Shown: positions 11,990 through 21,064 of the stretch, piece by piece
Numbering within the stretch: the stretch's first letter is position 1
Layout of the letters: every line of letters starts with the position of its first letter
From: a virus
DNA: 34,902 bases
Virus record (IMG/VR): IMGVR_UViG_3300043395_002563
Location: 1-34,902 of that record
Direction: 5' to 3' (one strand)
Position numbers and translations under genes: made by a program
The notes under the pieces: model-generated
Told to the model about the DNA's origin: nothing
The model's input: only the letters and a program-made list of their open reading frames with translations
The model's database searches: none

Positions 11990-12065
11990 TGGCTGCCAAG
12001 GCAGGGCTCGAACCTGCGACCTAGTGATTAACAGTCACGTGCTCTACCGACTGAGCTACTTGGCA
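11990..12065 (-). tRNA. tRNA-Asn (anticodon GTT), CCA encoded
   Basis: The molecule folds fully. The acceptor TGCCAAG pairs with CTTGGCA, then discriminator G and encoded CCA (11992-11990). The D arm is GCTCAGTCGGTAGAGC, the anticodon stem closes around loop CTGTTAA with anticodon GTT, and the T arm is GCAGG-TTCGAGC-CCTGC. It sits in the late operon between the 70-aa gene stop (12071) and the large-terminase start (11985), with five bases before it and four after. It reads in the same direction, so it is cut from a shared transcript. Confidence 0.96.
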
Positions 12066-14828: not shown

Positions 14829-15080
14829 CTAAGCTAACCCCCAATTAATCTTAACCAGCGACTTGCCCTCATCATCAGCTTCCAATGCCATAGCTTCATA
14901 GCCTAAAGCCGTCAAAGCCTCGCAAACACCCCTAGAATCGACTTCCCTCAGTAGTACCCAGTCGGAGTATAGGCCCTTCCTTGCAGCCGATCCTACAGAC
15001 CTTAGCGCCTTCTCTAAGGCCTTTTCTACATCAGGGGCATTTACACCGTCTGCCAGCTGTCTTGCTTCTTCGGCTTTCAC
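14829..15080 (-). CDS. unknown small protein, 83 aa
   Basis: It starts at GTG 15080 inside GTGA, the stop of the previous gene, with GGAG eight bases upstream, so the pair is coupled. It is a helical N-terminal part (MKAEEARQLADGVNAPDVEK) followed by WVLLREVDSRGVCEALTALG and an acidic beta end. The composition is Ala/Glu-rich and no family is recognised. It lies between the putative origin region and the lipoprotein gene. Confidence 0.7.
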   Translation of the reverse strand: MKAEEARQLADGVNAPDVEKALEKALRSVGSAARKGLYSDWVLLREVDSRGVCEALTALGYEAMALEADDEGKSLVKINWGLA

Positions 15081-15472
15081 TTCTTATCTCCACCACATAC
15101 ATGGACGATGGGTTCACTATTTTTACCAAGTGCCCAGTTTTCACCCTTATTGATAAACATCGGCAACCAATGAGGTTTTTTATATTTAAAACTTTTTTTA
15201 GCTAATGGGAAACCAAGCAATTTTCCATCAGCGTAATAAGAAAATACCGTGCAAGGATCCAATCTAATCGTTTTGCTACGCATCAACTCGTCCAAAGCTT
15301 CAGCGTAAGCCTCAGTAACCTCACACCAAATTACAATGTTTTCACCCTTGGGATGGAATATAGAAAAGTCTCCCTTTACAGGGATTACATTGACTAGCTC
15401 AGCAAAGGTGACTTGCCCTCGGTGTTCATCGAGGTGCTTCACTATTGCTTGCTTGATTTCTTCTTTGTTCAT
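15077..15472 (-). CDS. unknown protein, 131 aa
   Basis: I recognise no family. It begins with a helical KEEIKQAIVKHLDEHRGQVT that could form a small winged-helix-like start, then beta segments (IVIWCEVTEAYAEALDELMR) and a Lys/Trp-rich stretch (SFKYKKPHWLPMFINKG). It is the first gene left of the repeat-rich region and is probably read from the TTGACG/TATACA promoter at 15711-15739. DNA binding to the repeats is one possibility to test. Confidence 0.7.
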   Translation of the reverse strand: MNKEEIKQAIVKHLDEHRGQVTFAELVNVIPVKGDFSIFHPKGENIVIWCEVTEAYAEALDELMRSKTIRLDPCTVFSYYADGKLLGFPLAKKSFKYKKPHWLPMFINKGENWALGKNSEPIVHVCGGDKK

Positions 15473-15550
15473 CCATCCCTCCAGTGTGCACCCTACCTAC
15501 CACACCCCTATCACCTGTTCAATATTTAACCATTTCTTATGTTTGACATC

Positions 15551-15575
15551 TGACAGATTTTAAAAATATCTGTCA
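15551..15575. repeat. inverted iteron pair TGACAGAT / ATCTGTCA (copy 1)
   Basis: TGACAGAT (15551-15558) and ATCTGTCA (15568-15575) form a 25-bp A/T-centred imperfect palindrome. A third half-site ATCTGTCA follows at 15580-15587. Confidence 0.8.
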
Positions 15576-15680
15576 TACAATCTGTCAGCAACTTTTTTTT
15601 AATCTTCTTAACTACTTATACCTATGTTTGACAGTTTGACAGATGATGTATGTATATGAGTATATGTATGTATGTGTGTA

Positions 15681-15719
15681 TAGGGTATAGGGGTGTATGT
15701 AGGGTATAGGTGTATAGGG
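15681..15719 (+). repeat. G-rich tandem repeat, possible G-quadruplex
   Basis: The unit TAGGGTATAGG(GG)TGTAT occurs twice in tandem (15681-15699 and 15700-15717). Four G tracts (15683-85, 15690-93, 15702-04, 15717-19) are separated by 4, 8 and 12 bases, which would allow a long-looped quadruplex on this strand. A related complementary C-rich stretch lies at about 15488-15512. Confidence 0.6.
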
Positions 15720-15739
15720 TGTTGAAAAAAACCCGTCAA
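15711..15739 (-). promoter_or_regulatory. leftward sigma70-like promoter
   Basis: TTGACG (15739-15734) is followed after exactly 17 bases by TATACA (15716-15711). Transcription would begin near 15704 and read to the 131-aa and 83-aa genes, across several TGACAGAT-type half-sites. Confidence 0.55.
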
Positions 15740-15758
15740 ACCGTCAAACATGCCTAAG

Positions 15759-15780
15759 CTTTTGTTATTAATAACAAAAG
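15759..15780. repeat. perfect 22-bp palindrome
   Basis: CTTTTGTTATT (15759-15769) is followed immediately by its exact reverse complement (15770-15780). It is non-coding and 4 bp from the second iteron pair; likely a dimer-binding site or cruciform. Confidence 0.85.
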
Positions 15781-15784
15781 TGCA

Positions 15785-15810
15785 TGACAGATATTTTAGC
15801 CTATCTGTCA
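15785..15810. repeat. inverted iteron pair TGACAGAT / ATCTGTCA (copy 2)
   Basis: TGACAGAT (15785-15792) and ATCTGTCA (15803-15810) repeat the arrangement of copy 1 with one more base between arms. The related ATCCGTCA follows directly (15811-15818). Confidence 0.8.
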
Positions 15811-15838
15811 ATCCGTCATACATCGCCAATGTTTTAAA

Positions 15839-15857
15839 GATATTTTAATAAAATATC
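15839..15857. repeat. A/T-rich palindrome after the helicase stop
   Basis: GATATTTTA and TAAAATATC are mirror arms around one base (15839-15857), next to the helicase stop at 15859. It could be a weak terminator or an unwinding element. Confidence 0.6.
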
Positions 15858-15858
15858 A

Positions 15859-17397
15859 TTACTTGTCGATGCACTCAACGAAGCGTTCTTTCTCTGACAG
15901 TTGCTTCACAATATACCGGCTGGCAGTCGTGGCACCCTTCGGCTCAAAGTTGTAGCCACGAATGACAGTGCCTCTGCCAAAGCTATGTCGAAACTCGTAG
16001 ACATCCCATGAGACGAATTTAGCGAGCTCTGATTTGATTTTTTTACCGAGGGACACTGGAGAGGCATTTTTTAAATTGCAGTGCTTTTGATACAGGTCTT
16101 GCAGGACTTCATTAGATATCCACCAAGATACTTTTGTAACGTCCTGTTTTTTCTCGAAATAATTATATTCACCATGGCTGGTGTATTTGGACAGGGCTAG
16201 GATGAAAATGTCTTCCCACCAATTATTTCTATCCGAATCAATGAGTGTCTGGCCTTCTTCAATATAATTGCCCATCTTTTTATCAGAGCACAATTTGCTA
16301 AGGATGCTGGCCTCCCACTCTGGGAAACGGATGGAAGCTTTCTCGTCAACATTAGGCTGGCTGAGTATATGGAGGATGTCAGCCATGATAGCCTCACGGT
16401 GCTCCTTGATGAATGCCTCTACTCCACTTTGCCATGTACAGTGTTTGTCACCTGGGTTAGCCAAATAGATAGGCACCGACCTAGTAGCCATGTCTGCCGA
16501 TACACTGGGATCATTTACAGTGACTACTATTGTAAAATGATTCCGTATAGTTATGTCGCCTACATACATCAAATGACCATTGATGGTCTGAGCGGTTACT
16601 AGGCTTTCGACAAATTCACTAGACCAATTCTGCTGTTTCACGTTGTCGAACAGGATGATTCTAGAATTTCGGTGTATAGCGATTCGCTTTTGTGCCTGAA
16701 ATTCATCCATGCGAGCCGACAAACTGATAGGCGTACAGCTGTATAGGTATGACAGGAGCTTTGGGATGGTTGATTTCCCAAAAGCCATCTTACGACCTAT
16801 CCAATTGGGATCAGACTGAATGACAAAAATTGGCCGCTTGCCATCACCATTACCCCAAGCGGGTGAAATAAAAAGAGCCTTTAGCAAAGCCGCAGAGTAT
16901 TCATCGAGTGGTTTAAAATGACTTAGGAGCTCATCTAAAGCACCAGTGGGTGCCGGTACAATAGGAGGGCAGGTGTAATACACCTTGTCCTCTATCGGCC
17001 AAGTGGGTGTAACCGAGATAGATGTAAAATCATCTGACAGCCTCGTCATGGCGCTGTAAATGTCTTTTTTACTGGCTGCGCCTGGGAAGCTTTTAAAAAC
17101 AGTGTAATAACCTAGCTGCTGAAGCTGAGAAAAAAGATCAGTGTCATTCTTAAGTACGTGCAGCTTATCGTTGAAATTAGCGTGTAAAACTCCGTTAATC
17201 TTAACGATTTTTTCAATCGGCTTTATTTTGTCAAGGATAGCATTGAGGTCTAAAGGTAGGGTTTCTTTATCAGCATCTGTGTAATTACTAATAATTTTTG
17301 CAATGCGTTCTTGTTTTATTTGGCTGTCTAGCTTTTGTTTTTCTCGCGCTTTTTCAATATCAAAAACTACTTTTTCCTTGCTTTCATCAACAGGCAT
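15859..17397 (-). CDS. SF3/D5-like replicative helicase (AAA+), 512 aa
   Basis: The second half is an AAA+ ATPase: a Walker A-like stretch IGRKMAFGKST (Lys208, Ser209; the first Gly is one residue further away than in the classic motif), Walker B IILFDN (247-252), sensor-1 Asn near 295 (VVTVNDPS) and an arginine-finger candidate Arg306 (MATRSVPIYL). The first 150 residues are charged and unlike any domain I know. This arrangement matches phage and plasmid D5/P4-type helicases that partner an AEP primase; here the primase is encoded separately just upstream. It unwinds DNA at replication start. ATG 17397 is preceded by AAGGAA. The C-terminus extends to the iteron region. Confidence 0.75.
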   Translation of the reverse strand: MPVDESKEKVVFDIEKAREKQKLDSQIKQERIAKIISNYTDADKETLPLDLNAILDKIKPIEKIVKINGVLHANFNDKLHVLKNDTDLFSQLQQLGYYTVFKSFPGAASKKDIYSAMTRLSDDFTSISVTPTWPIEDKVYYTCPPIVPAPTGALDELLSHFKPLDEYSAALLKALFISPAWGNGDGKRPIFVIQSDPNWIGRKMAFGKSTIPKLLSYLYSCTPISLSARMDEFQAQKRIAIHRNSRIILFDNVKQQNWSSEFVESLVTAQTINGHLMYVGDITIRNHFTIVVTVNDPSVSADMATRSVPIYLANPGDKHCTWQSGVEAFIKEHREAIMADILHILSQPNVDEKASIRFPEWEASILSKLCSDKKMGNYIEEGQTLIDSDRNNWWEDIFILALSKYTSHGEYNYFEKKQDVTKVSWWISNEVLQDLYQKHCNLKNASPVSLGKKIKSELAKFVSWDVYEFRHSFGRGTVIRGYNFEPKGATTASRYIVKQLSEKERFVECIDK

Positions 17398-17423: not shown

Positions 17424-17479
17424 GTGGCGAAAGCCACCTAGATTGGTCAGACCTTGCCGGGATCTGGCCAATTTTTTTT
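17424..17479 (+). terminator. plus-strand hairpins with T8 (terminator) between helicase and primase genes
   Basis: On the plus strand, GTGGC-GAAA-GCCAC (17424-17437) is a perfect stem with a GNRA-type loop. It is followed by TTGGTCAGA (17443-17451) pairing with TCTGGCCAA (17463-17471) with one G-T pair, then eight T (17472-17479). This has the form of an intrinsic terminator, but both flanking genes lie on the other strand, so it would end an antisense transcript. The rest of the 80-bp gap is empty. Confidence 0.6.
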
Positions 17480-18278
17480 ATGAATCTGCAAACGCTTTTA
17501 ATGCGCTGGCGTAGGTGGACTCTAGTTCGTGGTCTGAAAACTCCCGCCTATCAAACGGCGAAGCGCGCAAAAGTTCAAGTACTTTTTCAGGGTCAACCGA
17601 TGCTTTTAATAGTTCTAATGTACTGACATAGACCGATATATTCCTACCCTCACCAAACGGTATACCTTTTTTAATAAACATATCGACATGATTGGAAATT
17701 TTATTAGGATTGTCAGAAAAAAACGTATTAGCAACTGCATACATATTTTTCTTTTCCTTGATTACCTGATGTACTGGCTGCGGATATCCCGAGAAATTGT
17801 GAAAAACTATGCGAGTGCAAGGGTAAAAAGGCCTAGCACCATCCACACATGAACCGTCAAAGTGTTCATTGTATTTTACTATTTTCCGCATATTAAATTC
17901 ATATTCCTCTAGGCTTTCTATCCTCCTAGCCCAACGTGTAATAATCCTAAACCTATCAGCTGGTGGGTATGTGGTGTTTGCCGTAGTTTTTGGCAGCTGA
18001 TGGCTCTTAGTGGTCGCAATGATCACCTCGCTATCCATCCAATCAACTATCGCTTGACCTAGCGGGTATTGCTCATGCCCGTTGTTATCGACATCAAAGG
18101 CAGTAAACTCGCTATAGAGAAAATTGATCTTGTTTCTGTAGTGATCTTTAAAAACTATCGGGCTCCACGTATAGCGACAGGCTATGGCACCTAGTAGCTT
18201 GATATCGCATGGGTTCAACGGTACAAAATCACTAGCGAATTTATAAATTCCACTGTTTAGTTTATGATAGCTAGGCAT
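17478..18278 (-). CDS. AEP-type primase (primase-polymerase-like), 266 aa
   Basis: The catalytic core of the archaeo-eukaryotic primase fold is visible: EFTAFDVDNN with metal-binding Asp62 and Asp64, TTKSHQ with His93, then ADRFRIITRW (about 107-116) and the third acidic region VDGARPFYPC. The C-terminal part (FGEGRNISVYVSTLELLKAS, about 215-235) resembles PriCT-like domains that follow such primases. It would make primers for the host polymerase, with the helicase encoded next. No separate polymerase is present in the genome. It starts at ATG 18278, only 26 bp from the divergent resolvase gene. Confidence 0.78.
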   Translation of the reverse strand: MPSYHKLNSGIYKFASDFVPLNPCDIKLLGAIACRYTWSPIVFKDHYRNKINFLYSEFTAFDVDNNGHEQYPLGQAIVDWMDSEVIIATTKSHQLPKTTANTTYPPADRFRIITRWARRIESLEEYEFNMRKIVKYNEHFDGSCVDGARPFYPCTRIVFHNFSGYPQPVHQVIKEKKNMYAVANTFFSDNPNKISNHVDMFIKKGIPFGEGRNISVYVSTLELLKASVDPEKVLELLRASPFDRREFSDHELESTYASALKAFADS

Positions 18279-20102: not shown

Positions 20103-20549
20103 TCACTGGCTTAAAACTATTGTGTAAAATCTCCTTGAATCTTTCAATGCTGGCCCTGCTGCACCTACGCCAATCGTTCGTATATATGGGTTTAACAAGG
20201 CTTGGCGGTGTGGTGGGCTATTCAGCCAGCCTTGTATGGCTGCATTTATGTCAGGGTAGCCGCAAGCTACAATTTCCCAAGTCTGGCTATAGATTCGTCC
20301 GTCACAGAGAGCTACACGTTGCCAAAACTGCTGGCCGGTCTGAGGATCAACGTGCCCACATATATTTAGACGCCATATTCTTTTTGACCATGTAAGAGCA
20401 GCACACGACAGGTCTACACGTAGGGCGACAGGCTGTAGGCCATACTGCGCCCTAGTAGCGTTGACAGCTGCCAGCATAGCTTCCCGTGTCTCATAAAGAG
20501 GCTCATCAGCTAGATCTTGCACTATCGCGCTAGGATAATCACCCACCAT
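20103..20549 (-). CDS. CAP-superfamily protein 2 (SCP/YkwD-like), 148 aa
   Basis: The bacterial CAP pattern is clear: an N-terminal helix (TREAMLAAVNATRAQYGLQP), the PVALRVDLSCAALTWSKR segment, GHVDP with the conserved His, WEIVACGYPDINAAIQGWLN with the Glu, then SPPHRQALLNPYIRTIGVG. These are the residues that line the CAP cavity. No signal peptide is visible from ATG 20549 (GGGGGA upstream), and the frame could also open at GTG 20582. It overlaps the end of the first CAP gene. CAP proteins are mostly secreted lipid or surface proteins; a role in a phage is unknown. Confidence 0.8.
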   Translation of the reverse strand: MVGDYPSAIVQDLADEPLYETREAMLAAVNATRAQYGLQPVALRVDLSCAALTWSKRIWRLNICGHVDPQTGQQFWQRVALCDGRIYSQTWEIVACGYPDINAAIQGWLNSPPHRQALLNPYIRTIGVGAAGPALKDSRRFYTIVLSQ

Positions 20550-20935
20550 AAATCGTCCCCCGCTACTCCTATTTTTTGCCACGCATGATCTCTAAGTATC
20601 CGGTATTCCTTAGGATATACGCCTAGCGTGTTAAACCAGGCGTCCTCTGTCAAATATTGGCAAACAAGCAATTGTTCGCCCATAGTCCAGGGATAACCGC
20701 ACGTTATAGCCCTATCTCGCACCGTTTGACCTTGTGGCCCTACTGATGTGCAAGCTCGTGCTTTCAAAATGTAATCGAGATGATATTTAGCAGCGCAGGA
20801 AAGTCTGTAGTCTTCTAGTAGGGCTTTTGCATTCCATTCAGAGCGGTAGTCATTAATAAGTACAGTCAGGGTATGGCTCTTAGGTCCCCATCCTAAAAGC
20901 AAGTAACTTATGACAAATATTCCAAGCCATCGCAC
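20522..20935 (-). CDS. CAP-superfamily-like protein 1 with N-terminal signal/anchor, 137 aa
   Basis: From GTG 20935 (GGGG six bases before) the protein begins with a hydrophobic signal or anchor (RWLGIFVISYLLLGWG). The rest follows the CAP layout: VLINDYRSEWNAKALLEDYR, then LSCAAKYHLDYILKARACTS, WTMGEQLLVCQ with the Glu, AWFNTLGVYPKEYRILRD and KIGVAGDDLWWVIIL. The conserved His of the GH motif is not seen (CTSVGPQG instead). Three or four Cys could pair outside the cytoplasm. The promoter at 20966-20976 lies just upstream, which argues against the longer frame from 21064. Paired with CAP protein 2 by a 28-bp overlap. Confidence 0.68.
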   Translation of the reverse strand: MRWLGIFVISYLLLGWGPKSHTLTVLINDYRSEWNAKALLEDYRLSCAAKYHLDYILKARACTSVGPQGQTVRDRAITCGYPWTMGEQLLVCQYLTEDAWFNTLGVYPKEYRILRDHAWQKIGVAGDDLWWVIILAR

Positions 20936-20965
20936 ATAAACCCCATCTTGTTTATAGATAGGGAT

Positions 20966-21053
20966 AGTATACCACAAATTTTGGGATTTTAGATTGCATC
21001 GAGTACTAGGAAGGAATATGCGGAGATGGGATAGGTCTAATCTGTGGTATACA
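20966..21053. promoter_or_regulatory. divergent extended -10 promoter pair
   Basis: TGTGGTATACT reads leftward at 20976-20966 and TGTGGTATACA reads rightward at 21043-21053; the 10-bp core is an exact inverted repeat. Both have TGn before a TATACx -10, with no good -35. The left one fits the CAP operon and the right one the RecT operon. Confidence 0.55.
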
Positions 21054-21064
21054 TCATGAGCCAC

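Follow-up and report, generated by a model that had tools for sequence, protein, structure and literature searches.

The noncoding region at positions 15473-15858 is most probably (roughly 85%) a phage replication origin of the SaPI/PICI satellite kind, which would be opened by the phage's own initiator helicase; this assignment draws on the layout of the sequence. The window, meaning the whole stretch of DNA that was analysed, is an entire IMG/VR virus record (IMGVR_UViG_3300043395_002563; 34,902 bases, classed as linear) from a freshwater phage. Its genes encode terminase, portal, major head protein, endolysin, RecT and a RuvC-like resolvase. The 386-bp region fills precisely the space between two ORFs on the minus strand, one for a helicase-like protein of 512 aa and the other for a protein of 131 aa. 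The gene order is primase, SF3-like helicase, repeats, 131-aa gene. The features of the locus are, by position:

15077..15472, minus strand: gene for the 131-aa protein, phrog_7134 (E 1.1e-16, residues 1-108, nearly the whole length)
15473..15858, no strand: putative replication origin, all noncoding sequence between the helicase and 131-aa genes (from the ORF gap, the repeat score and the mirrored pairs)
15544..15587, no strand: left distal site cluster (TGACAT>, TGACAG>, <CTGTCA, <CTGTCA), with the 25-bp palindrome at 15551-15575
15627..15642, plus strand: left proximal tandem iteron pair, TTTGACAG TTTGACAG, with 8-bp pitch and directed towards the core
15641..15731, plus strand: core, a C-free run of 91 nt (G, T and A only) between the proximal pairs; presumed site of melting and helicase loading
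15674..15726, plus strand: TATAGGG-type tandem repeats within the core, containing TGTATAGGGTATAGGG
15733..15748, minus strand: right proximal tandem iteron pair, reading TTTGACGG TTTGACGG along the minus strand, mirroring the left pair with 94 bp between the arms
15759..15780, no strand: perfect 22-bp palindrome, CTTTTGTTATTAATAACAAAAG
15785..15818, no strand: right distal site cluster (TGACAG>, <CTGTCA, <CCGTCA), with the 26-bp palindrome at 15785-15810
15835..15861, no strand: A/T palindrome over the helicase stop codon
15859..17397, minus strand: SF3/AAA+-like helicase of 512 aa, presumed origin-binding initiator (phrog_10537, E 7e-8; DUF5906 below cut-off; motifs)
17478..18278, minus strand: small AEP-type primase of 266 aa, directly upstream of the helicase (AEP motifs by eye; weak profile support)

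Every repeat that an earlier note had listed for this region is present. Half-sites occur in both orientations, and six of the seven exact TGACAGAT copies of the window fall here; 0.84 copies are expected in the window, and none of 100 shuffles reaches seven. Pairs of TGACAGAT form the 25-bp and 26-bp palindromes. The tandem repeat is CCGTCAAA at 15733-15748, the perfect 22-bp palindrome and the G-rich tandem repeat lie at 15759-15780 and 15674-15726, and the A/T palindrome is 92% complementary. TGACRG sites number ten, where their frequency in the remainder of the window predicts 0.46. The region was also said to be unlike any other, and this holds: its 8-mer pair score is 75, compared with 18 for the next best 386-bp stretch in the window and at most 16 in 300 shuffles.

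The key element had been overlooked. It consists of two tandem 8-bp iteron pairs which face each other across the C-free core. The left pair, TTTGACAGTTTGACAG (15627-15642), points right and the right pair, CCGTCAAACCGTCAAA (15733-15748), points left; 15 of the 16 arm bases are complementary, and the 94-bp spacing is that between the scored 16-nt arms. This arrangement is found once in the window and in none of 500 shuffles. The core at 15641-15731 is the longest C-free run in the window (the next is 47 nt); measured over 15645-15731 it is C-free and G-rich, with A/T at 57 of 87 positions. The distal TGACRG clusters, which include the two half-site palindromes, lie outside each proximal pair. 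Low-complexity TATG and TAGGG repeats in parts of the core would suit a degenerate, repeat-rich spacer produced by chance, or a packaging or recombination site. Such an origin for the repeats is very improbable, as counts exceed those of shuffles in every test and many independent helicase loci have such an arrangement in the corresponding place; against packaging, the terminase genes are 2-5 kb away. No Rfam family matched the region, and the GC-skew plot that had been proposed as a check gives no clear turn at 15473-15858.

An operator or promoter region was also considered. A dimeric regulator, perhaps the 131-aa protein, would bind the TGACAGAT palindromes and control the leftward operon starting at 15472. 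The inverted TGACAGAT pairs do resemble dimer operators, TTGACA doubles as the -35 promoter consensus, and a winged helix is weakly suggested for the 131-aa protein (Pfam MCM4_WHD, E 0.077). Its structural model is poor (pLDDT 48) and shows helix-helix-helix-strand-strand. However, promoter-like sites in 15473-15858 do not exceed shuffles (one found, 2.0 expected), and a search of the same region for a terminator found none. An operator does not need a C-free core, and mirrored tandem pairs about 95 bp apart recur 3' of unrelated helicases at loci without phrog_7134. Operator function is thus quite unlikely.

The anatomy follows a published plan. In SaPIs and other PICIs, the origin comes directly after the initiator gene, on its 3' side, and has two iteron sets around an AT-rich region (PMC6092414). 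SaPI Rep reportedly recognises the iterons through its C-terminal domain, apparently as two hexamers, and the helicase C-terminus of Cch2 is likewise reported to recognise iterons (PMC7581432). The window shares with the SaPI/PICI pri-rep-ori module an origin directly 3' of the initiator helicase gene (which ends at 15859), a small primase gene upstream, and two iteron sets around a melting region, here the mirrored pairs and distal clusters around a core that is presumed to melt. With staphylococcal islands it also has in common a phrog_7134 gene directly downstream of the origin. The SaPI island that was examined has GGGACA iterons at 8-bp pitch and a 68-bp gap. The iterons of the window are TTTGACRG, and its core, C-free and G-rich, is less clearly A+T-rich than that of SaPI/PICI origins. 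The window is not itself a PICI: its terminase, portal and capsid genes mark it as a complete tailed phage, whereas PICIs lack structural and packaging genes and are marked by an integrase and an stl/rpr regulator.

Other modules resemble the locus less closely. In Streptococcus phage Sfi21, a primase-helicase module has a cis origin near the gene. The same is true of P4 alpha with ori-crr (PMC6092414). The crenarchaeal plasmid pRN1 also carries a primase-helicase module with a cis origin near the gene, and 166 bp downstream are reported to be essential. The putative origin of SCCmec Cch2 is similar in that the helicase loads itself and uses its C-terminal domain to bind direct repeats that lie downstream of the helicase gene; it differs in having only three 5-bp iterons and an A-family polymerase-type primase partner (PMC7581432).

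The helicase of the window is too diverged for placement in a known family by sequence. The earlier label of SF3 helicase draws on visible motifs and a sub-threshold match: Walker A (GKST), Walker B (RIILFDNV) and a sensor-1 asparagine (VVTVNDP) are present in order and align with DUF5906 helicases, but the match to Pfam DUF5906 (21.9 bits, E 3e-4) is below the gathering cut-off of 27.6. Neither the whole protein nor its C-terminus matched VapE and DUF5906 profiles built in this analysis above shuffles. Comparison with SaPI Rep and PT1028 gave no significant similarity, so it does not class as a PICI Rep homologue. A search of IMG/VR, phages, plasmids and GTDB genomes found no close relatives at the sensitivity used. 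A C-terminal RHxFGxG motif seemed by eye to be common to this helicase and SaPI Rep; it was significant in no profile test and was discarded. The AlphaFold model, made without homologues, is uninformative (pLDDT 33). The C-terminal end of the primase aligns weakly with the SaPI primase.

On the SaPI/PICI model, the TTTGACRG iterons would be bound by the SF3-like helicase from the adjacent upstream gene, probably via its C-terminal domain, and one helicase ring would assemble on each mirrored iteron set. The helicase would then melt the C-free core between the sets, and two forks would start, primed by the adjacent small AEP primase. Core melting and the start of replication would thus both fall within 15473-15858.

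The generality of the plan was assessed by a search with the helicase protein alone, which gave 80 VapE-helicase phage loci in IMG/VR; 46 were left after near-duplicates and one locus without downstream sequence were dropped. In the 400 bp past the helicase stop, 23 of the 46 are above the 99th percentile of control repeat scores (Mann-Whitney p 2e-10). An inverted tandem-iteron pair is present within the same distance in 23/46 loci but in only 7/561 control windows (1.2%). The gap between pairs was allowed to range from 40 to 200 bp and is 83-118 bp in 19 of the 23 loci with a pair; these limits are approximate because the rule was set after some VapE loci had been viewed by eye. The 94-bp gap of the window is in the middle of this range. 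VapE-type phage and prophage loci in the IMG/VR sample resemble the window in the inverted pairs of tandem iterons that directly follow the helicase, in most cases 83-118 bp from each other; some have the TATAGGGTATAGGG core as well. Their helicases match VapE; that of the window does not. Many of the VapE loci (L103-L182) have unrelated origin-like arrays with iterons ending in ACA (GGTAACA, GGCAACA, GTTGACA, GGAAACA), which suggests that this ending is a common part of a recognition code.

Exchange of helicase and iterons between related phages is observed in the sequences. The closest syntenic relative, L002, is 82% identical to the window in TerL, 75% in RuvC and 57% in the primase. Its helicase has no detectable similarity to that of the window, the 131-aa gene is absent, and the same slot has different repeats, GTTGTTGG/CCAACAAC (38 pairs; 0/300 shuffles), so helicase and repeats have changed together. 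The iteron pair found automatically in L002 is 188 bp apart. A second relative has a helicase 47% like that of L002 and marginal repeats (16 pairs; 2/300 shuffles). Four staphylococcal islands were also compared. In L201, the helicase C-terminus is 61-65% identical to the others, against 78-79% for the rest of the protein; this island has the most diverged C-terminus of the four, and its iterons are AAGACA instead of GGGACA. Position, mirrored iterons, spacing and the swap in L002 together support the proposal that the origin is read by a phage-encoded initiator beside the primase and helicase. The proposal that it is of a new type does not survive, because SaPI/PICI origins with this plan are already in the literature and tailed phages often have it 3' of a VapE helicase.

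It is possible to accept the iterons as an origin and still assign their reading to the 131-aa protein, which would then recruit the helicase. Homologues of this protein, 28-35% identical, occupy the same place in staphylococcal islands (SaPIs). In SaPI-type islands, a phrog_7134 gene stands directly after origins that belong to three helicase families: VapE, where the iterons are GGGACA; DUF927, where they are GGGAACT (PT1028); and DUF5906, where they are TAGCTACA (L205, a Bacilli genome). In L002 the 131-aa gene was replaced along with the helicase and iterons, so the swap alone cannot tell which protein reads the repeats. Nevertheless, islands with similar 131-aa homologues have different iterons (L201 compared with L046), no phrog_7134 gene was detected in loci L054-L198, many of which have clear iteron arrays, and the iterons of SaPI Rep and Cch2 are the reported targets of the helicase C-terminus (PMC7581432). 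This variant is unlikely. From the SaPI literature and the failure to detect phrog_7134 at other array loci, we infer that the iterons are read by the helicase and not by the 131-aa protein. The phrog_7134 family is not confined to origins, because it also occurs in Priestia and Lactobacillus plasmids and in L206 without detected helicase or iterons.

The locus is thus best described as a probable SaPI/PICI-type origin carried by a complete phage; its iteron sequence is its own, and the helicase is, by sequence comparison, unusually diverged. A wider generalisation, to which we give about even odds, is that complete tailed phages and satellites have one geometry in common: two tandem pairs of 8-bp iterons, mirroring each other at a distance of about 85-118 bp, just past the 3' end of the initiator gene. 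This geometry would be served by helicase families too diverged to align (VapE, DUF927, DUF5906/D5 and that of the window). The sequence would be swapped as a helicase-plus-iteron cassette with the geometry kept, and the phrog_7134 gene would be an origin-linked partner carried along. The broad reach of the plan in phages is judged from sequence arrangement. In the window and the comparison set, the SaPI-type plan seems common in complete tailed phages, which bears on the source of satellite replication modules, and it appears more widespread than a 2018 survey stated. With the spacing rule, such origins could be located in phages that lack annotation, and the helicase and iteron swaps are natural experiments on how initiator helicases read DNA.

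The TATAGGGTATAGGG core was spotted by matching the window to Lactiplantibacillus phage H1-Guo. Of its 49 matches in IMG/VR, most lie 100-190 bp past the 3' end of a helicase gene. It was considered as a universal core and rejected: TATAGGG is found 3' of the helicase in one of the 46 independent VapE loci, against 0.9% of control windows, and it is therefore the core of a subset. Where found in VapE-type loci, it is on the other strand relative to the helicase than in the window. Similarly, TGTATAGGGTATAGGG is common to the origins of other phages on the helicase strand and is on the opposite strand in the window. The core motif at 15674-15726 thus looks as if the origin cassette had been inverted; this stretch also has four G-runs of at least three, and a G-quadruplex could form. 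A 14-mer, TRTATAGGGTATAGGG, was not found in print in the literature searched. Among the IMG/VR pattern matches (L054-L102) it shows a strong association with intergenic DNA 100-190 bp 3' of VapE, DUF5906 and DUF927 helicases, where it lies on the helicase strand and is flanked by differing iterons.

Other exact TTTGACRG tandems were examined as candidate origins and are mostly due to chance or within coding sequence. One alone is origin-like: in L183, the window's own TTTGACAG iterons lie directly 3' of a DUF3987-like gene. In another phage (L193, 4547-4587), tandem TTTGACGG copies form a minisatellite in a coding region and not an origin. A further phage contig (L195, 405-1994) carries a GroEL-type chaperonin gene (Pfam Cpn60_TCP1, E 8e-59). 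Elsewhere in the window there is a tRNA-Asn gene (GTT) at 11990-12065, which separates the terminase gene from the small ORF that comes next. Two overlapping minus-strand ORFs at 20103-21064 appear by eye to encode secreted CAP/SCP-domain-like proteins, which are unusual in phage.
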